From NCBI GenBank assembly GCA_020848255.1, contig JADLAJ010000111.1, forward strand, positions 1-38,388: a stretch of DNA of 38,388 nucleotides, in the 5' to 3' direction. The first letter of the stretch is position 1. Each line of letters opens with the position of its first letter. The position numbers and the translations under genes were made by a program. This document shows positions 2,969 through 35,041 of this stretch, piece by piece. This DNA comes from Chitinophagales bacterium (lineage in GTDB: Bacteria; Bacteroidota; Bacteroidia; Chitinophagales; JADIYW01). The notes under the pieces were generated by a model. That model made no database searches. It was given only the letters and a program-made list of their open reading frames with translations, and had not been told where the DNA came from.

Positions 2969-4027
2969 CTAAAACAACGACATCTGCCCGTTTACTTTCG
3001 GATCAAAAATATCACAGTTCATTTTCGGGAATTTATTATTGAGAGAAAACTTGTTTCTTGCCAGTTGTACTTGTTGCCGGATAGATTCTGCAAAAGCACC
3101 TTCCCCGCGCATCCGCCTACCCGTTTTCTGATCCTGAATACTGCCTCCATGTATCGAAGCCACCTGATGCAGCACCTTGTCTTTTCGCAGTGGAAATGCT
3201 TCCTCCAACCAATTGGTAAACACTTGTTCCACTTCGCCGGGCAATCTTAAAATCGTGTAATTGATATTCAATGCACCGTGCTCAGCTGCAGCCTTTGCAA
3301 TATTAAAAATCTCCGTATCATTTAAGCCCGGAATAATCGGTGCAATATTCACCATCACCGGAATGCCTGCTTTTGTTAGTGCCTCCACGGTTTCTAAACG
3401 TTTCTGTGCGGTGGAAGTGCGTGGTTCCATCTTGCGTCGCAACTCCTCGTTTAAAGTGGTGATACTAATCACCGCGCTAACCAGATTCAATGCTGCCAGT
3501 TCCTGCAGGATGTCAATATCGCGTTGTATTAAGCTGTTTTTAGTTATGATGCCCACCGGATGTTTGTGTTCCAGTAGAATTTGCAATAATTGCCGTGAAA
3601 TTTCCAGTTTCTTTTCAATGGGTTGATAGCAATCTGTGTTGCCTGAAAGCATTATCGGGCTGACCTTCCATGTTTTTTTTGAAATGGTTTTGCGCAATAA
3701 TTCCGGTGCATTTTTCTTAACCAGAATGACGCGTTCAAAATCAAGACCTGCGTTATAACCCCAGTAAGGGTGGGTGTTTCGGGCGTAACAATAAGAACAG
3801 CCGTGTTCACACCCTTCATACGGATTCATGGAATAATCCATCGGAATATCCGCACTTTTTACAGGATTAACGATTGTTTTTGGAAAGACTTCAATGTATT
3901 TTGTCTGAATGATTTTTGCACCCTCCTCTTCCAAAAACTCTTTATCATCGTAATTCAATTTTGAATAACGATTGGTGAGATTGCTTTGCGCTCCCCTGCC
4001 TTTTTGCGGAAGTGATTTGGTGTTCAT
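2969..4027 (-). CDS. PA0069-family radical SAM protein (SplB-like)
   Basis: The start is set at the ATG at 4027, giving MNTKSLPQKGRGAQSN and a 352-residue protein. An upstream ATG at 4093 would add 22 residues encoded partly by a CACAGAG-type intergenic repeat, so it is not used. The radical SAM cluster is NPYEGCEHGCSYCYAR with Cys near residues 73, 77 and 80 (Cx3Cx2C), and the TIM-barrel continues through LSGNTDCYQP and GIITKNSLIQRD. The N-terminal GRGA motif and the C-terminal GEGAFAESI segment are typical of the PA0069 family, related to spore photoproduct lyase (SplB) and often annotated as a Rv2578c-like radical SAM protein. The reaction is unknown. The protein is cytoplasmic. The neighbours do not suggest a partner. 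Confidence 0.88.
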   Translation of the reverse strand: MNTKSLPQKGRGAQSNLTNRYSKLNYDDKEFLEEEGAKIIQTKYIEVFPKTIVNPVKSADIPMDYSMNPYEGCEHGCSYCYARNTHPYWGYNAGLDFERVILVKKNAPELLRKTISKKTWKVSPIMLSGNTDCYQPIEKKLEISRQLLQILLEHKHPVGIITKNSLIQRDIDILQELAALNLVSAVISITTLNEELRRKMEPRTSTAQKRLETVEALTKAGIPVMVNIAPIIPGLNDTEIFNIAKAAAEHGALNINYTILRLPGEVEQVFTNWLEEAFPLRKDKVLHQVASIHGGSIQDQKTGRRMRGEGAFAESIRQQVQLARNKFSLNNKFPKMNCDIFDPKVNGQMSLF

Positions 4028-26646: not shown

Positions 26647-27486
26647 ATGCAAATAGCCGAACTCAACAAAACAGCCACACAAGTCCGCCGCGATATTGTG
26701 CGCATGGTACATCAATGTAAATCGGGTCATCCGGGTGGCTCGCTTGGTTGCGCCGATTTTCTGACCGCACTTTATTTTGAAATCATGCACGTCAACACCG
26801 ATTTCAAGATGGACGGTATTGGAGAAGATTTATTTTTCTTATCAAACGGTCATATTTCTCCTTTGTTCTATAGTGTTCTGGCACGTCGTGGATTTTTTGA
26901 GGTGAAAGAACTCGGCACCTTCCGTCATATTAATTCAAGATTACAAGGGCATCCAACGACACACGAAGGCTTACCTGGAATCAGAATTGCCAGCGGATCT
27001 TTAGGTCAAGGCATTTCGGTAGCAATTGGTGCAGCATTAGCAAAAAAATTAAACGGCGATGACAAACTCGTTTATGCGTTAACCGGTGATGGCGAGTTAC
27101 AGGAAGGACAAATATGGGAAGCTGCCATTTTTGCAGCGGCTAAAAAAGTAGATAATTTAATTGTTACTGTCGACTGGAACAATGCACAAATTGATGGTTC
27201 CACTCAACAGGTGTGCGATTTGGGCGATTTGCATGCGAAGTTCAAGGCGTTTGGATGGGAAGTGTTGGAAATGAAAGGCAATGTGATGGAAGACGTAGTG
27301 TTTACGCTGACACAGGCACAACTGAAAGCGAAACAAGGCAAACCAATCGTTATTTTAATGCATACCGAAATGGGCTTTGGCGTTGACTTTATGATGGGCA
27401 CCCACAAATGGCACGGCAGTGCACCAAACGATGCACAATTGGAGAGCGCCTTATCACAACTGGAAGAAACCTTGGGTGATTATTAG
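26647..27486 (+). CDS. Transketolase, N-terminal (TPP-binding) subunit
   Basis: The 279-residue protein corresponds to the PP domain of transketolase. It carries KSGHPGGSLGCADFLTALYF near residue 26, GHPTTHEGLPGI and ASGSLGQGISVAIGAALA. The TPP motif GDGELQEGQIWEA continues to the metal-binding Asn in VDWNNAQIDG (about residues 140-180). It works with the next gene product to transfer two-carbon units between ketose and aldose phosphates in the pentose phosphate pathway. The split into roughly 280- and 320-residue subunits is well known in bacteria and archaea. The 50-base gap and intact domain ends argue against a frameshift. It starts at MQIAELNKTA. Confidence 0.94.
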   Translation: MQIAELNKTATQVRRDIVRMVHQCKSGHPGGSLGCADFLTALYFEIMHVNTDFKMDGIGEDLFFLSNGHISPLFYSVLARRGFFEVKELGTFRHINSRLQGHPTTHEGLPGIRIASGSLGQGISVAIGAALAKKLNGDDKLVYALTGDGELQEGQIWEAAIFAAAKKVDNLIVTVDWNNAQIDGSTQQVCDLGDLHAKFKAFGWEVLEMKGNVMEDVVFTLTQAQLKAKQGKPIVILMHTEMGFGVDFMMGTHKWHGSAPNDAQLESALSQLEETLGDY

Positions 27487-27536
27487 AATAGGATAATTTT
27501 GCAATCAGCAAATTTCAAAAAATTAAGAAGAACAAC

Positions 27537-28499
27537 ATGAGTTTACAAGACATCACATTCACCGATAAAAAAGATACACGCTCAGGATTTGGCGTGGGTA
27601 TTCATGAAGCAGGAAAAGCCAACCCGAACGTGGTAGCCATGTGCGCCGACCTCGTAGGTTCTTTAAAACTGGAAAAATTTATCGAAGACTTTCCGGAACG
27701 CTTCGTGCAAACCGGTATCGCGGAAGCCAATATGATTGGCATTGCGGCCGGCCTGACCATCGGCGGTAAAATTCCGGTAGCTACTACTTTCGCCAATTTC
27801 GGGACTGGCCGTGTATACGACCAGATCCGTCAAAGCGTGGCGTATTCAGATAAGAATGTAAAAATTTGTTGCTCACATGCCGGACTTACTTTAGGTGAAG
27901 ACGGAGCCACCCATCAGATTTTAGAAGATATCGGATTGATGAAAATGTTGCCGCATATGACGGTAGTCGTGCCTTGCGATTACAATCAAACGCGTTTGGC
28001 AACGAAAGCAATTATTGAACGAGTTGGACCAACCTATCTGCGTTTCGGTCGTCCCGTATGGCCAATATTTACGGCTGCTGAAGATTCAGGTTTTGAAATC
28101 GGCAAAGCACAATTTTTGTCTGAAGGAACGGATATAACGATTATTGCATGCGGTCATTTGGTATGGCATGCGGTGATGGCCGGACAAGAATTAGAAAAGC
28201 GTGGAATTTCTGTTGAGGTGATTAATATGCACACGATAAAACCGTTGGATGTAGATGCTATTTTAAAATCTGTTGGAAAAACAAAATGTGTAGTAACCGC
28301 TGAAGAACATCAACGCAATGGTGGTTTAGGCGATGCTGTAGCGCAGGTATTAATTCAAAATACACCCTATCCTCAGGAATATGTAGCGGTGAATGATTCT
28401 TTCGGTGAAAGCGGAACACCAGATCAACTATTAGAAAAATATGGTTTGATGCCGAAAGATATTATCGCGGCCGTAGAAAAAGTGATGGCGAGAAAATAA
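27537..28499 (+). CDS. Transketolase, C-terminal (pyrimidine-binding) subunit
   Basis: The 320-residue protein has the Pyr and C-terminal domains of transketolase. The catalytic Glu that activates TPP is in FVQTGIAEANMIGIAAGL (about residues 55-75). TFANFGTGRVYDQIRQSVAY and GLTLGEDGATHQILEDIGLM follow, and the regulatory-type C-terminal domain begins near residue 185 (GTDITIIACGHLV). It needs the preceding gene product to form an active enzyme; the 50-base spacing fits one transcript. Its product pool (xylulose-5-phosphate) may link it to the sugar-kinase/aldolase operon at 31478-35041, but only if that pathway ends in a pentulose phosphate. Confidence 0.94.
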   Translation: MSLQDITFTDKKDTRSGFGVGIHEAGKANPNVVAMCADLVGSLKLEKFIEDFPERFVQTGIAEANMIGIAAGLTIGGKIPVATTFANFGTGRVYDQIRQSVAYSDKNVKICCSHAGLTLGEDGATHQILEDIGLMKMLPHMTVVVPCDYNQTRLATKAIIERVGPTYLRFGRPVWPIFTAAEDSGFEIGKAQFLSEGTDITIIACGHLVWHAVMAGQELEKRGISVEVINMHTIKPLDVDAILKSVGKTKCVVTAEEHQRNGGLGDAVAQVLIQNTPYPQEYVAVNDSFGESGTPDQLLEKYGLMPKDIIAAVEKVMARK

Positions 28500-29178: not shown

Positions 29179-30609
29179 CTATACAAAAAACTTCTTGTAA
29201 AAATCTATGGCGTTTTTGTAGAATATCTTTTCTATGATTTGTACTGGTGTATAGCTAAACCAAAGGTCTTTCTGGTATTTATGCTTTTCCAGATAATCCA
29301 ATAAGTCCTGCTGCAGCAAAGGCATCTTCACGGCGGATTCATACGGATCGATGTGTGTAATCGAACCGTCAAAGTCGGTGCCGATGGCAATCATATCCCA
29401 GCCAGATTTTTTACCAACCGCTTTCACCAGCTGGAATGCATTATCCAGAAATAATTGCGCAAACTCAGCACGCTGTTTTTCTGCATCCTTGTGTTCGCTA
29501 ATAGATTTGATTAAATCAATGCCACCCAGATTGCCTTTATCCATCATCAATCCAATCAACCCTTCCGAATCATGTATAATGCGTGCTTCCTCATCAGAAA
29601 TATTGATGCTCCATTTATACAATCTTCCTTTTCTCGCTTTTAAAATAATGTCATTTTGACGAATGGATGAATCCAGTGTTTTAAATCCGTTTGCACAGGC
29701 ATGACTGCTGATGACCGGAATTTTTTGTTTAGGATTTAAATAATTATGGTTGCCGATAAATGCATAATATTCTTTTCGTGCAGCCACACTCATATGTTTC
29801 GTATCTATTAAAATACGCTTACCATTATTGGAACTAAGTAATTCTCTTACCACATGCCAGCCGGCTTCGGTAATGCCTTTGTTTTTTCCTTTATTCTGAT
29901 TAATTAGTCCGTTAATAGGACGCTTAAAACTCGTTGCATGTCCGCACAAATGATTCCAGAAATGATGCGCCAGATTTATAACAAATGGCGGGTATTCCCA
30001 GCTTTTTATAGTTTGTATGTTGGCTGTCAGATGTTGTATCAGCGCCTCTTTTGTCAGCTTATCCGTTTCAGGAGCACCGGTACCCAGCACATGTGTTCCT
30101 TCTATGGTTACAATACCAATGAGTGTGTTTTCTTTTTTAAGCGCCTGTTCCAGTTCCTTATAATTATTCACCAGTACAAATTCGCTTTTACCGTCAGGAC
30201 TTTTGCCTTGCTGATTTTTTACGTATTCGTACTCTGCCTGCAAGTCTTCAAAATAATGATAATGTTTTTTCTGATGAGCAATAGAGCTTGCCGCATAGCC
30301 GGTAATTACTTCCTGTGCAATATTTATTCTTCTTTTTCCCACTAAAATTTTCGGCAGGTTGCGTAAATGCAAAAATCCTCTTTCCGTTGGATATAAGGAC
30401 AATTGAAACACGCGCACATTTCCTGCTGCCATGGCATCCAGGTTGCACTGCGACTCCATATGGATATGCGCTACGAGTTCGCTGATAGACTGTGCTGTTT
30501 TTCCGTCAATTTTATGATGTATGGAATCCCACATATTTGCAGCCGGCTCGGGATATCCGGAATTAAACGATTTTAAATTGGGATGACAATGGAGGTCGAT
30601 GGTAATCAT
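29179..30609 (-). CDS. Peptidase M19 family (membrane dipeptidase-like) zinc hydrolase
   Basis: The 476-residue protein has the amidohydrolase metal ligands of M19. DLHCHPN (first His pair) is at about residues 5-11, GIVTIEGTHVLG near 170 supplies the bridging Glu, VINLAHHFWNHLCGHATSF near 210-228 is the His-rich loop, ISSHACANGFK near 300 follows, and the late GTDFDGSI near 420 carries the Asp. M19 enzymes cleave dipeptides, including those with D-amino acids. This one is longer than the typical 350-400 residues, with an insertion around residues 90-160 (RINIAQEVITG... YEYVKNQQGKSPDGKSEF). No signal peptide is seen, so it is likely cytoplasmic. It has its own transcript; the downstream gene on this strand is unclear. 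Confidence 0.85.
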   Translation of the reverse strand: MITIDLHCHPNLKSFNSGYPEPAANMWDSIHHKIDGKTAQSISELVAHIHMESQCNLDAMAAGNVRVFQLSLYPTERGFLHLRNLPKILVGKRRINIAQEVITGYAASSIAHQKKHYHYFEDLQAEYEYVKNQQGKSPDGKSEFVLVNNYKELEQALKKENTLIGIVTIEGTHVLGTGAPETDKLTKEALIQHLTANIQTIKSWEYPPFVINLAHHFWNHLCGHATSFKRPINGLINQNKGKNKGITEAGWHVVRELLSSNNGKRILIDTKHMSVAARKEYYAFIGNHNYLNPKQKIPVISSHACANGFKTLDSSIRQNDIILKARKGRLYKWSINISDEEARIIHDSEGLIGLMMDKGNLGGIDLIKSISEHKDAEKQRAEFAQLFLDNAFQLVKAVGKKSGWDMIAIGTDFDGSITHIDPYESAVKMPLLQQDLLDYLEKHKYQKDLWFSYTPVQIIEKIFYKNAIDFYKKFFV

Positions 30610-30793: not shown

Positions 30794-31393
30794 TTACTTG
30801 TTTTTCTTGGCTTCTTTGGAATATTTGAACTGATAAAATTGCTGCATTAGCCAGGCTTCTATTTTATTGATGGATTTTGCGCCACCTAAATATTTCGCTT
30901 CTACAAATGCTTTGGATGTTTTCTCTAAAAGTTGTGCAGCCACATAAGCATCATCTATACTGTTGCCTAAACAAATACTTTTTCCATTTAATAAAACAGC
31001 AGCATATCTTCCATTCAAAGCATGTAGAATATCATCCTCATTTTTTGCGATACGAACGGTAACACCTAATAGTTGTGCCTGATCATCTAATATCGGTGGA
31101 ATTTCTTCTTTAACCTGTGATGCAAATTCCTGCTGCGTGATTAAAATAACCTGTACTTTTTTCCTTTTTGAAAAGATTTTGTAAAAGACAGAATCGTTGT
31201 TTGCTACAAGAATATCTTCTGCCGTAAGCAATGAAAGTGCCTTATTTTTTTGTGTGTAAATGATTTCGTCATTCTCTAATCGTATGGAAATCTGCAAGAC
31301 CTCCACCTTTCCCCAGCTTTTATACCCGGCACTTTGCTGCTCGAAAAAACCGGCAGCATTTAATAGTATTTGTATGGCTTCTTTTTTGTTCAT
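30794..31393 (-). CDS. Degenerate class II aldolase-like protein without metal ligands
   Basis: The 199-residue protein aligns by eye to the neighbouring class II aldolase (31478-32056). ILITQQEFASQV takes the place of VIHTHQLYASIV, so the His-x-His zinc ligands are lost. AAVLLNGKSICLGNSIDDAYVAAQLLEK takes the place of AALMSNHGVVCIGNDLEDTFEVARTLEK, so the third His is lost too. The PSSE Glu is also missing. The fold-determining core is kept while catalysis is not. It is therefore a likely pseudoenzyme, perhaps a binding or regulatory subunit of the aldolase encoded upstream. The frame is fully open, so it is not a decaying pseudogene in the simple sense. It is separated from the aldolase by 84 bases containing an inverted repeat. 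Confidence 0.75.
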   Translation of the reverse strand: MNKKEAIQILLNAAGFFEQQSAGYKSWGKVEVLQISIRLENDEIIYTQKNKALSLLTAEDILVANNDSVFYKIFSKRKKVQVILITQQEFASQVKEEIPPILDDQAQLLGVTVRIAKNEDDILHALNGRYAAVLLNGKSICLGNSIDDAYVAAQLLEKTSKAFVEAKYLGGAKSINKIEAWLMQQFYQFKYSKEAKKNK

Positions 31394-31407
31394 ATGGTTG
31401 TTTAATA

Positions 31408-31472
31408 TATCACAGAGTTACACCAAACTATCTCAGTGGACTCTGTGTTTATCTTTGAGTTCCTCTGTGATA
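31408..31472. repeat. CACAGAG-type inverted repeat between aldolase and pseudo-aldolase genes
   Basis: TATCACAGAG (31408-31417) and CTCTGTGATA (31463-31472) are a perfect ten-base inverted pair; between them CTCAGTGGACTCTGTG repeats the words. It could form a hairpin in the operon mRNA. It resembles the shorter copy at 4052-4081. Confidence 0.7.
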
Positions 31473-31477
31473 CTATA

Positions 31478-32056
31478 TTAAGCAGTTTGTTTTTTAGACG
31501 CGATAAATAGTTCACACGCTTTTTCTAAGGTTCGTGCTACTTCAAAAGTGTCTTCCAAATCATTTCCTATACAAACAACACCATGGTTCGACATTAATGC
31601 CGCATTGGATTGCTCAATCGCTCTGGCTGTTTCTACCGTTATTTTTTTTGTATTAGGCAACGCGTACGGTGCTGCTTTTATCGTCTTCGCTCCCAGTATT
31701 TTCTGATGCTCTACATTCAACACCACCACATCTTTCTGCGCCGCTGCTACTATGGATGCATACAACTGATGAGTATGGATAACCGCATTGATGTGCGGTC
31801 GTGTTTTATATACTTCGCAATGCAGTTTCAGTTCTGATGAAGGTTTCAGTTTGCCTTCGTGTTTCAATGTATAAATATCCACCAGCACCATTTCTTCGGG
31901 TGTCAGTTCATCGTACTTTCTGCCACTGGGTGTAATGACCATTTGCGTATCACTCACCTTGATGCTGACATTGCCCCAGGTGCGCGCCACCAGCCCTTCT
32001 TTTAATAGTTGCAAGCCCGCAGCACATACCTTATTTTTCGCTTCCTGAATATCCAT
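31478..32056 (-). CDS. Class II aldolase/epimerase (fuculose-, rhamnulose- or ribulose-phosphate type)
   Basis: The 192-residue protein has all the class II aldolase/adducin features. WGNVSIK is near residue 28 (phosphate binding) and TPSGRKYDELTPEEMVLVDI near 42-61. KPSSELKLH holds the acid Glu75, VIHTHQLYAS carries zinc ligands His94 and His96, and MSNHGVVCIG carries His158. Members are either aldolases that cleave a ketose-1-phosphate to DHAP and an aldehyde, or 4-epimerases that convert ribulose-5-phosphate to xylulose-5-phosphate. Which applies cannot be decided from motifs. It begins two bases after the kinase stop, so it is co-translated with the sugar kinase (32059-33588). The kinase would make its phosphorylated substrate. 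Confidence 0.9.
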   Translation of the reverse strand: MDIQEAKNKVCAAGLQLLKEGLVARTWGNVSIKVSDTQMVITPSGRKYDELTPEEMVLVDIYTLKHEGKLKPSSELKLHCEVYKTRPHINAVIHTHQLYASIVAAAQKDVVVLNVEHQKILGAKTIKAAPYALPNTKKITVETARAIEQSNAALMSNHGVVCIGNDLEDTFEVARTLEKACELFIASKKQTA

Positions 32057-32058
32057 GA

Positions 32059-33588
32059 TTATAATTCAAATCTTGTTTTATTAATTGTCTGATAGGCTTT
32101 ACTAAGCTGATGGAACACCCGCTGATAGATTCCGAAAAGTTCGTTGTATATTTTGTGGTGATTTGGATTCGGAATAAAGGTATCTACCTGTTGAATAAGT
32201 TTATGAATCTCAGAGAAATCATCTAAGGCTCCCGAACCCACCATCGCACACATCGCGGCACCGAAAGCACCTGCATTTACTGGCTGCGAAGTGGTGATGA
32301 TTTTCCTGTTGGTTACATCCGCTATCAATTGCATCCAGGATTTATTCTTACTGCCACCTCCTGTAATCTTCAAAGTATCAATCTTAAAACCATAATCTTT
32401 TTCCAGATTATGGATGGTCCAGCGTAAATTATAAGCAATGCCTTCAAAGTTAGCGCGCGCAATATGTGCTCTTGTATGTTGGTGCGTGAGATTAAATAAG
32501 GTGGAGCGTGTGGTGGTGGTACTGACCGGACAACGTTCCCCTAAAAACCAGGGCGTCATAATTAAGTAATCAGCACCCGGATTGGTTGCATTGATTTCTT
32601 GTTCAATTAATAAAAACAAATCTTGTTCAGATAGTATTTCTTTTTCTTTTTGATAATAGGTATTGACCATCCATTGCGTGTTAATGCCGGCAGATTCTGT
32701 GATACCCACTACAATATTTTTTGTAGGATCAGCACTTTGCAAACAAAACGTGGCATTCTTAAACTTAAGATTTCTGGCGGTAGATACACCTACCCAGGCG
32801 GATGTTCCAACATAAATATGGGCTTCGCCTTCACCGATGGCGGTGGTGCCTATTGCTGCACTTTGTGTATCATCACACCCGCCGTAAACGCCTGTGTTTA
32901 CAGATAATCCCAATTGTTCTGCTGCTTCTTTTGTAAGGGTGCCCACCAAATCGACAGAGCGAACTAAATCCGGCAGTTTATTTAAATCGATTTTACACAA
33001 TTTAAAAAACAAACGTTCCCAGTCTTTCTTTTTTACATCAAATGCATAAGAACAGGCACCGGACCATTCCGCCACCATCTTGCCAGTACATTTATATTTT
33101 AGATATCCGTTTACATCCAGGATTTTATAAGTGTTGTTGTAAATTTCGGGCTGCTTATCCTTTAACCATATAATTTTAGGAATGACATCTTTTCCCGTCA
33201 ACTCCGTACCTGCTACCAATTTGAACATTCGTTTCCCGCCAAAATAATTCATGGCTTTTCTGGCTTGCTCCTCCGCTCTGCCATCTACCCAGGAAATGTT
33301 CCGATGCAGCACGGTTCCGTTCTTATCTACCGGAATAACACCCTGTGCCTGTGTAGAAAAAGCGATTCCTTTTATATCTTCTTTTGAGATGCTGATTGAT
33401 TGGATAATCTTGTTCGTCGCCTTACAAATGGCATTCCAGTAATCCAGAGGTTCCTGTTCCACCCAACCCGGATTGGGAGTAAACAAAGGATATTCTTCTA
33501 TCGCAGTTGCCAGTACATTTCCGTTCGTATCTATTAAAATAGATTTTACGCTACTGGTACCAACATCGTATGATAGAAAATATTGCAA
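32059..33588 (-). CDS. FGGY-family carbohydrate kinase (xylulokinase-like), TTG start
   Basis: The 509-residue protein has the ATPase-fold motifs of FGGY kinases. FLSYDVGTSSVKSILID is at the very N-terminus and GVYGGCDDTQSAAIGT near residue 235, where the Asp is the likely catalytic base. IYVGTSAWVGVS follows near 260, and the FGGY signature region runs from LKITGGGSKNKSWMQLIADV to NAGAFGAAMCA near 400-445. The only start that keeps the first motif is a TTG at 33586-33588, since a stop lies in frame just upstream and the next ATG is about 100 codons in. It is one base after the stop of the aminotransferase gene, so translation is coupled. The substrate may be a ketose or alditol; similarity to xylulokinases is by eye. 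Confidence 0.9.
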   Translation of the reverse strand: MQYFLSYDVGTSSVKSILIDTNGNVLATAIEEYPLFTPNPGWVEQEPLDYWNAICKATNKIIQSISISKEDIKGIAFSTQAQGVIPVDKNGTVLHRNISWVDGRAEEQARKAMNYFGGKRMFKLVAGTELTGKDVIPKIIWLKDKQPEIYNNTYKILDVNGYLKYKCTGKMVAEWSGACSYAFDVKKKDWERLFFKLCKIDLNKLPDLVRSVDLVGTLTKEAAEQLGLSVNTGVYGGCDDTQSAAIGTTAIGEGEAHIYVGTSAWVGVSTARNLKFKNATFCLQSADPTKNIVVGITESAGINTQWMVNTYYQKEKEILSEQDLFLLIEQEINATNPGADYLIMTPWFLGERCPVSTTTTRSTLFNLTHQHTRAHIARANFEGIAYNLRWTIHNLEKDYGFKIDTLKITGGGSKNKSWMQLIADVTNRKIITTSQPVNAGAFGAAMCAMVGSGALDDFSEIHKLIQQVDTFIPNPNHHKIYNELFGIYQRVFHQLSKAYQTINKTRFEL

Positions 33589-33589
33589 G

Positions 33590-35041
33590 TTAATTTTTTA
33601 CATTTTTAAAGACATTTTCAAATCTGTTTAGCGCATCGTCAATTACATCATCGCTATCGGCCATACTGCAATACAAACGGCTTCCTGCTAAAGTTACGAT
33701 TCCTTCTGCCATGTAGGCTGCTCCATACTCTTCCATCAGCTTTTTTCGTTCGTTGATTTCAGCCAGTACAGATTTTATTTTCAGCAGTTTAATCTTTACA
33801 TATAATGTTCCCGCTGCTTCCAAATGACAAATAGAACCTTGGTTAAATGCCACGAATGGTAAGCCATATTTATCAATCAACTGATTTAATCCGGTCGTAA
33901 TTCTGTCACCTGCTTTTCCTGCTTTCTCGCAGGCATTGGTTCTTTCTATTTCCAATAACGTATGATATCCGGCACAGCAACTTAATGGATTTGCAGCCAT
34001 AGTTCCGCCTACTTTTACTTTTTTGCCACCTTGCAAACCAGCCGCTAAACCATCCATGTATTCTGCTTTACCGCCAATGCCGCCTGCTGAAGGATAGCCA
34101 CCAGCCACGACTTTACCAAAAATAGTTAAATCCGGTTTTACATTAAAGTATCCCTGCGCACCACTCATACCCACACGGAATGCTGTTACTACTTCATCAA
34201 AAATCAACAAGGCACCGTATTTATCGCATAACTCGCGCGCTTGCTGCGCAAATTCTTTATACACCGGATAGGTTCCGCTTTCCGGACCGAGCGGTTCTAA
34301 AATAACAGCAGCAGTTCCGCCTCGCAATCTGTTCCATTTCAGTTTGCTTTCCAAAGCGTCAATATCATTTGGCGGTACGGCTTGTGTATGCCAGTGCATC
34401 ATGAACGGAATGCCTTTGGCATCAAAGAATCTGGTTCCGGGAATTCGCAAGTCGTATATCATCTGGTCACTCCATCCGTGATACGCCCCTCCAATTTTTA
34501 TTATTTTTGATTTGCCGGTTTTGATACGTGCCAGACGCAAAGCACCCATCACCGCTTCCGTGCCGCTGCCTAACATTCTGAATCGTTCTACAGACGGGAT
34601 ATTTTTGCAAATCAATTCTGCCAGTTTGTATTCGTATTCGTGCAGTAAGCCTGTAGACGGACCGCATTCATTAATCAATTCAATGGCTTTTTCTCTTACG
34701 GATGGATAATTGCTACCCAATACCGTTGGCCCGCCGGCCTGTAAGAAATCAATGTATTTATTGCCGTCTGCATCATATAAATAAGCTCCTTCCGCTTTTG
34801 TAAAGGTTAGCGGAAACGGGTAATTGAAGGCTAAATTATGCTGTACACCGCCCGGAATGTATTGCTGTGCTTTCTCGTATATTTCTCTGGATTTTGTGCA
34901 CTTTGTTTTATAGAAATCCAGATAGCTTTCCATGGCTTTAGGTTCAATATGCTGCAAGGGTAAGGAAACCAACTTATCCAGTTTTTGATAAATCGGTTTT
35001 ATATCATGGTATTCGCTGATGGAAAATCCTGTTGAGCTCAT
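33590..35041 (-). CDS. Class III PLP aminotransferase, glutamate-1-semialdehyde aminomutase-like
   Basis: The 483-residue protein has the fold-type I class III motifs. IPGGVQHN is near 62 and GSGTEAVMGALRLAR at 158-172 binds the PLP phosphate. GGAYHGWSDQM follows near 184-194, ILEPLGPESG near 247, and FDEVVTAFRVG at 281-291 holds the Asp that contacts the PLP nitrogen. The Schiff-base Lys310 is in IFGKVVAGGYPSAG. True HemL proteins have about 430 residues; this one has an extra N-terminal 45-50 residues and heads an operon with sugar genes. It is therefore more likely an aminotransferase or aminomutase for a sugar-derived keto compound than a haem-pathway enzyme. A substrate cannot be read off the sequence. 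It starts at MSSTGFSISEYHD. Confidence 0.85.
   Translation of the reverse strand: MSSTGFSISEYHDIKPIYQKLDKLVSLPLQHIEPKAMESYLDFYKTKCTKSREIYEKAQQYIPGGVQHNLAFNYPFPLTFTKAEGAYLYDADGNKYIDFLQAGGPTVLGSNYPSVREKAIELINECGPSTGLLHEYEYKLAELICKNIPSVERFRMLGSGTEAVMGALRLARIKTGKSKIIKIGGAYHGWSDQMIYDLRIPGTRFFDAKGIPFMMHWHTQAVPPNDIDALESKLKWNRLRGGTAAVILEPLGPESGTYPVYKEFAQQARELCDKYGALLIFDEVVTAFRVGMSGAQGYFNVKPDLTIFGKVVAGGYPSAGGIGGKAEYMDGLAAGLQGGKKVKVGGTMAANPLSCCAGYHTLLEIERTNACEKAGKAGDRITTGLNQLIDKYGLPFVAFNQGSICHLEAAGTLYVKIKLLKIKSVLAEINERKKLMEEYGAAYMAEGIVTLAGSRLYCSMADSDDVIDDALNRFENVFKNVKN

Follow-up and report, generated by a model that had tools for sequence, protein, structure and literature searches.

We propose that two adjacent genes of a Chitinophagales bacterium, encoding a class II aldolase-fold protein devoid of the metal site (PSE) and a FucA-like class II aldolase (ALD), specify the two subunits of one heteromeric FucA-type class II aldolase that would have arisen by duplication and complementary loss. 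Judging from the sequences, we put the probability of this reading at about three in four. Both genes lie on the minus strand of the window, the 38,388-nucleotide stretch of DNA analysed here. Only slightly less probable is the fuller version, in which one composite active site has been split over paralogous genes by reciprocal loss, the products form an obligate alternating heterotetramer, and the undivided form persists in relatives. We infer a heteromer because PSE, having no metal site, conserves residues acting on the metal site of a neighbouring subunit, and because ALD has a metal site without the donor residues, in a genome where no further protein of the fold was detected.

PSE has a class II aldolase fold without the metal site

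The PSE frame runs over 199 codons with zero internal stops, in agreement with the intact frame given in the preliminary description.

30794..31393, minus strand: PSE, 199 aa, class II aldolase fold lacking the metal site, predicted to be the donor subunit of the heteromer (Pfam, AF2 model, 22 orthologues)

Pfam Aldolase_II matched PSE above the gathering score (E = 2.1e-6) and, at 0.01, also matched 11 of 13 PSE orthologues. The AlphaFold2 model of PSE has a mean pLDDT of 83 and resembles E. coli FucA with a VIA Z of about 18, superposed over about 177 residues, its C-terminal arm following FucA to about residue 206-210. Both HMM and fold place PSE in the class II aldolase/adducin fold family (PF00596). 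ALD and PSE of the window share an overall identity of 20%, and profile-profile alignment of their orthologue sets joined the two families (hhalign 98.4%, E = 7.5e-15). This alignment reproduced the C-terminal match between PSE and ALD (AAVLLNGKSICLGN / AALMSNHGVVCIGN) that had been noticed earlier as a shared core of the fold. A PDB sequence search with one PSE sequence found no relatives and the PSE profile gave only a weak match; the viral contigs searched held no relatives of PSE.

Residues were mapped by sequence alignment, backed by the predicted monomers, onto FucA of E. coli MG1655, the catalytic numbering of which was checked. At the positions of the FucA zinc ligands His92, His94 and His155 and of Glu73, the window PSE carries I, Q, G and N, respectively, and at those of the phosphate-site residues Asn29, Thr43, Gly44, Ser71 and Ser72 it carries K, K, N, A and N. 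The loss of the FucA-type acceptor residues is common to all 22 PSE orthologues, and histidine is wholly absent from several of them. The replacement of the His-x-His pair, the third His and the Glu, originally proposed from the window, thus recurs in each of the 22 orthologues gathered. With the zinc His triad and the catalytic Glu kept in 0/22 orthologues, PSE is not a class II aldolase enzyme; it is a class II aldolase-fold pseudoenzyme.

ALD retains the metal site and ends where the arm begins

The gene next to PSE encodes a protein with the complementary set of residues.

31478..32056, minus strand: ALD, FucA-like class II aldolase, 192 aa, predicted acceptor subunit (Pfam E 2.3e-49; AF2 model)
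31832..31840, minus strand: ALD Ser-Ser-Glu (aa 73-75), covering phosphate-site residues and the catalytic Glu, unchanged across 21 ALD
31769..31777, minus strand: ALD His-Thr-His (aa 94-96), contributing two of three zinc ligands, unchanged across 21 ALD and 18 S (the single-gene form described below)
31583..31585, minus strand: ALD His158, the third zinc ligand, likewise unchanged across 21 ALD and 18 S

Pfam Aldolase_II matched ALD above the gathering score with the E value listed. The AF2 model (pLDDT 91) aligns with FucA residues 1-189 at a VIA Z of 28-29 and ends at FucA 189, where the arm begins. All 21 ALD proteins carry the three zinc His, the catalytic Glu and the phosphate pocket of PF00596, and ALD is classified as a class II aldolase by its predicted fold and metal site. 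The trans-acting residues of FucA, those of the 113 loop and the C-terminal arm, occur in 0/21, and ALD is not a homomeric FucA-type enzyme with a complete site. The preliminary description of a pseudoenzyme beside an active paralogue therefore stands for PSE but has to be revised for its neighbour, as ALD has lost the trans-acting half of the canonical site. The best matches of the aldolase to the NCBIfam equivalogs (fucA, araD, mtnB and others) fall well under the curated cut-off, and for this reason the specific aldolase cannot be named.

Its sequence makes it probable that ALD is not complete on its own. Among the class II aldolase families, some models are naturally short (179-189 positions), so the loss of the arm need not inactivate ALD, which could have residual activity alone. 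Moreover, ALD has its own conserved loop, including for instance His117. Both the armless models and this loop would suit an arrangement in which ALD is an independent homomeric aldolase with changed specificity and PSE an independent homomer that has taken on a new function, so that only common descent would account for their adjacency. We regard this as quite unlikely, since PSE conserves trans-acting residues without a metal site of its own as their target, the pairing is strict, and the genome has no other detected gene of the fold.

The residues of the inter-subunit active site are partitioned between the two genes

FucA of E. coli (PDB 1fua/4fua) is a homotetramer arranged as a tetrameric ring, in which each subunit is both acceptor and donor. 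The acceptor subunit provides the zinc, held by three His, the phosphate pocket and Glu73, and the next subunit provides Tyr113' and an arm with Phe206' and Tyr209'. Published work places the FucA active site between adjacent subunits with Tyr113' from the neighbour (PMC11841055), and describes the shared two-subunit site as lined by Tyr113', Val202' and Phe206' (PMC11274987). Tyr209 was proposed as the catalytic acid for epimerisation, and the homologous epimerase AraD uses Asp120/Tyr229 (PMC5434028).

We aligned 21 ALD, 22 PSE and 18 S proteins, most of them from metagenome-assembled genomes, to these positions. All 21 ALD preserve FucA positions 29, 44, 71, 72, 73, 92, 94 and 155 and have Ser or Thr at position 43. 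The 18 S keep this acceptor set with no more than conservative changes; in 22/22 PSE it is scrambled, and 0/22 retain the metal site. The donor positions follow the opposite distribution: FucA 113, 206 and 209 correspond to Asp, Tyr and Tyr in every S (18/18) and every PSE (22/22). The ALD proteins vary at position 113 (Glu, Pro, Thr and others), and in 21/21 a gap covers positions 206 and 209. Two segments of PSE hold the donor positions.

31064..31099, minus strand: PSE donor loop PPILDDQAQLLG (aa 99-110), Asp103 at the FucA Tyr113' position (alignment)
30797..30892, minus strand: PSE C-terminal arm (aa 168-199), Tyr187/Tyr191 at the FucA Phe206/Tyr209 positions (alignment and model)

Within the loop, P99, D103, D104, Q107 and G110 are shared by all 22 PSE and by 17-18 of the 18 S proteins; ALD keeps G110 alone. 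As S and PSE have Asp where FucA has Tyr, the exact chemistry of the donor loop can be described only by analogy. Among 55 columns invariant in S, 19 are shared with ALD only, 11 with PSE only and nine with both. The donor segments hold 9/11 of the PSE-only columns versus 0/19 of the ALD-only columns (Fisher p = 4e-6, a descriptive value, because the segments, though taken from FucA, were picked after the pattern had been seen). Each paralogue has thus kept only half of the shared site, and therefore the two probably must assemble as a mixed enzyme.

That loop and arm are so strongly conserved might also be read as new catalysis by PSE itself, around the invariant Asp-Asp-Gln loop and the C-terminal Tyr residues. 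We hold this to be very improbable: nothing newly conserved in PSE forms an obvious site, and the conservation of loop and arm is inherited, because the same residues are conserved in single-gene S.

In one clade (L056:8925-9455, and also L057, L058 and L074), PSE has been shortened to 177 aa by a deletion within the ex-metal half, with both loop and arm intact. The PSE of genome G010 (L059:9057-9677) has a very long branch (1.28) and an insertion after the donor loop, with the Asp, Tyr and Tyr kept; this one pair has diverged faster.

A single-gene form combines both halves

A search with the PSE profile over one genome per species (84,980 species) gave, besides PSE, five S proteins of 219-223 aa from Flavobacteriaceae (Sediminicola luteus and two MAGs) and Chlorobiota-type MAGs. 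The S proteins are 46-55% identical to the ALD core and contain the PSE loop inside and the PSE tail at the end. All five of these genomes have one copy each, with neither a separate PSE nor a second PSE-profile copy. A second search found S also in 16/100 relatives of one Chlorobiota-type genome. Among 299 Sediminicola-family genomes, no further S was found beyond that of the Sediminicola genome itself, and a sample of 395 genomes of the phylum gave only weaker FucA-like proteins, apart from the window genome's own genes.

In Flavobacteriaceae the gene order is kinase, S, TetR regulator, aminotransferase, and S hence occupies the place of ALD-PSE in the Chitinophagales cluster. Neither a cassette-type aminotransferase nor a kinase was found near S in the Chlorobiota-type genomes.

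Gene surroundings

On the minus strand of the window, the order is class III aminotransferase, FGGY kinase, ALD and PSE.

33590..35041, minus strand: class III aminotransferase, first operon gene, related to glutamate-1-semialdehyde aminomutase
32059..33588, minus strand: FGGY sugar kinase, XylB-like, same operon as ALD-PSE (profile matches)

The aminotransferase is in the cluster at 20/20 comparison loci with a complete ALD-PSE pair and is 65-93% identical there. The FGGY kinase is present in the family of the window, represented by a distant one in another group, and adjacent in none of a third. As the aminotransferase is constant and the kinase is not, aminotransferase-ALD-PSE forms the constant core of the cassette. 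The aminotransferase is also related to guanitoxin GntE, carries an N-terminal extension and is better conserved than any other cassette gene. From gene content, we guess that the substrate is probably a ketose 1-phosphate supplied by the neighbouring FGGY kinase. A common pathway read from the neighbours was considered and rejected, as the flanking genes vary (sulfatase, amidase, M19 peptidase, PLP decarboxylase, acyl-CoA dehydrogenase, kinase).

Over 21 pairs, ALD and PSE overlap by 1 or 4 bases in 11 and are separated by a gap of 2-23 bases in nine; the spacing of 84 bases occurs in the window only. The spacer region (31394-31480) folds on itself through an 11-bp stem; this hairpin (-21.6 kcal/mol, z -4.2) is single copy in the window genome and looks like a small inserted palindromic element.

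Further along the window, a transketolase is encoded as two genes for the N-terminal and C-terminal halves (26647-28499), near the cassette in several relatives too. Downstream of PSE lies a distant M19 membrane-dipeptidase-like protein (29179-30609, E 6e-17) with no NCBIfam match; at one locus (L049), a sulfatase, a second M19 protein and an amidase stand between PSE and this gene.

Distribution, selection and phylogeny

Of the 398 Chitinophagales genomes searched, 22 have PSE and 22 have ALD; 21 have both. PSE follows ALD wherever the contig extends far enough, and the two unpaired cases sit where a contig breaks off: PSE of G559 at 3128-3724 of a 3871-base contig, and ALD of G008 at the very end of a 7923-base contig, into which it runs. 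PF00596 matched no genes of the window genome other than ALD and PSE. Two genomes of the same genus (G001 and G002) lack ALD, PSE and any class II aldolase-fold gene.

For unsaturated pairs, pairwise dN/dS is about 0.03-0.22 for PSE and 0.04-0.10 for ALD; constraint within PSE is strongest in the loop and arm and weakest in the ex-metal half. A decaying pseudogene might have been suspected from the lost catalytic residues and from the 84-base hairpin-forming spacer peculiar to the window. Open PSE frames in 22 genomes and the dN/dS values speak against decay, which we consider practically ruled out by the selection data and the orthologues. The preliminary description, which had favoured retention over decay and named the absence of orthologues with the same losses or a dN/dS near one as grounds for abandoning that view, is borne out here: the orthologues exist, share the losses, remain paired with ALD and evolve under purifying selection.

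Maximum-likelihood analysis of 70 proteins gave one clade each for ALD and PSE (100/100), both nested in a paraphyletic S family. The best free tree places ALD and PSE with different S groups at modest support. Holding them together, as expected for a single duplication, gave an AU p of 0.32, by which this topology is neither shown nor rejected. Mirror-tree analysis of ALD and PSE distances gave an r of 0.87, with a partial correlation of 0.72 given the aminotransferase; this hint of linkage is suggestive only.

Proposed assembly of ALD and PSE

The pair shows genomic features expected of enzyme-pseudoenzyme heteromers of the prozyme type, namely two paralogues, one of them catalytically dead, constantly paired and under selection. 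We propose that the gene of an S-type homotetramer was duplicated, after which one copy would have lost the donor elements and the other the acceptor elements. Each loss would have been tolerated because the other copy complemented it, so that both copies would now be needed. ALD and PSE would alternate in a ring, probably of alpha2-beta2 stoichiometry, so that PSE would complete an ALD-zinc site at two of the interfaces and the other two would be dead. In such a ring, ALD would bind metal and substrate, and PSE would insert Asp103 and Tyr187/Tyr191 from the neighbouring position. The physical assembly, the stoichiometry and the catalytic contribution of PSE are all inferred.

Alternatively, PSE may be a regulatory or stabilising partner of a complete ALD, acting as a prozyme-like allosteric activator through residues that are non-catalytic. 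Pairing, operon and purifying selection fit any obligate partner, and a dead paralogue activates trypanosomatid deoxyhypusine synthase 3000-fold (PMC3663545). However, this explanation predicts neither the invariance of the PSE residues that in FucA lie at the neighbour's site nor their loss in ALD, and we deem it unlikely. The preliminary description had suggested a structural or allosteric role, for example in a hetero-oligomer. A hetero-oligomer is indeed the best explanation, but a merely structural or allosteric role does not fit a protein that conserves the trans-acting residues lost by ALD.

Relation to known systems and implications

FucA and the other PF00596 aldolases share with the pair the fold, the metal, phosphate and Glu residues of ALD, and the two-subunit site. 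They differ in that FucA is a homotetramer with both roles in each subunit, whereas here the roles would fall on two genes. As proposed for ALD-PSE, trypanosomatid deoxyhypusine synthase, with its sites at monomer interfaces, and AdoMetDC each combine with a dead paralogue, the prozyme, into an obligate heteromer (PMC3663545). They belong to unrelated eukaryotic folds, and the arrangement is described for them as an activation mechanism; the present pair is bacterial, with a complementary partition of a composite site and an undivided form surviving in relatives. The archaeal tRNA splicing endonuclease similarly went from alpha4 to alpha2-beta2 after duplication, with catalytic and structural subunits (PMC4090602); its fold and reaction are different, and one of its subunits is described as structural, whereas PSE is predicted to bring catalytic residues. 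Adducin heads (PDB 8iah), a known non-catalytic branch of the class II aldolases, also lost the metal site and work as oligomers (PMC12599920). Unlike PSE, which is paired with an aldolase in an operon, adducin is cytoskeletal and has no catalytic partner.

The open-access literature searched gave no description of a class II aldolase encoded by two genes. From the sequences, we would place the ALD-PSE pair among the enzyme-pseudoenzyme heteromers, with complementary loss as a new feature. How homomeric enzymes become obligate heteromers is still debated. To our knowledge, few natural cases combine a surviving undivided relative, a known inter-subunit site and residue-by-residue reciprocal loss. 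Duplication models ask whether heteromers can replace homomers without initial benefit (PMC11066126). If true, our reading would make the pair a natural example of subfunctionalisation within a single active site, with each step testable and with S, ALD and PSE as three states all open to expression and recombination. A further consequence would be that a gene annotated as an "aldolase" may depend on the "dead" one beside it, and that it would be a mistake to dismiss PSE-like genes as decayed.
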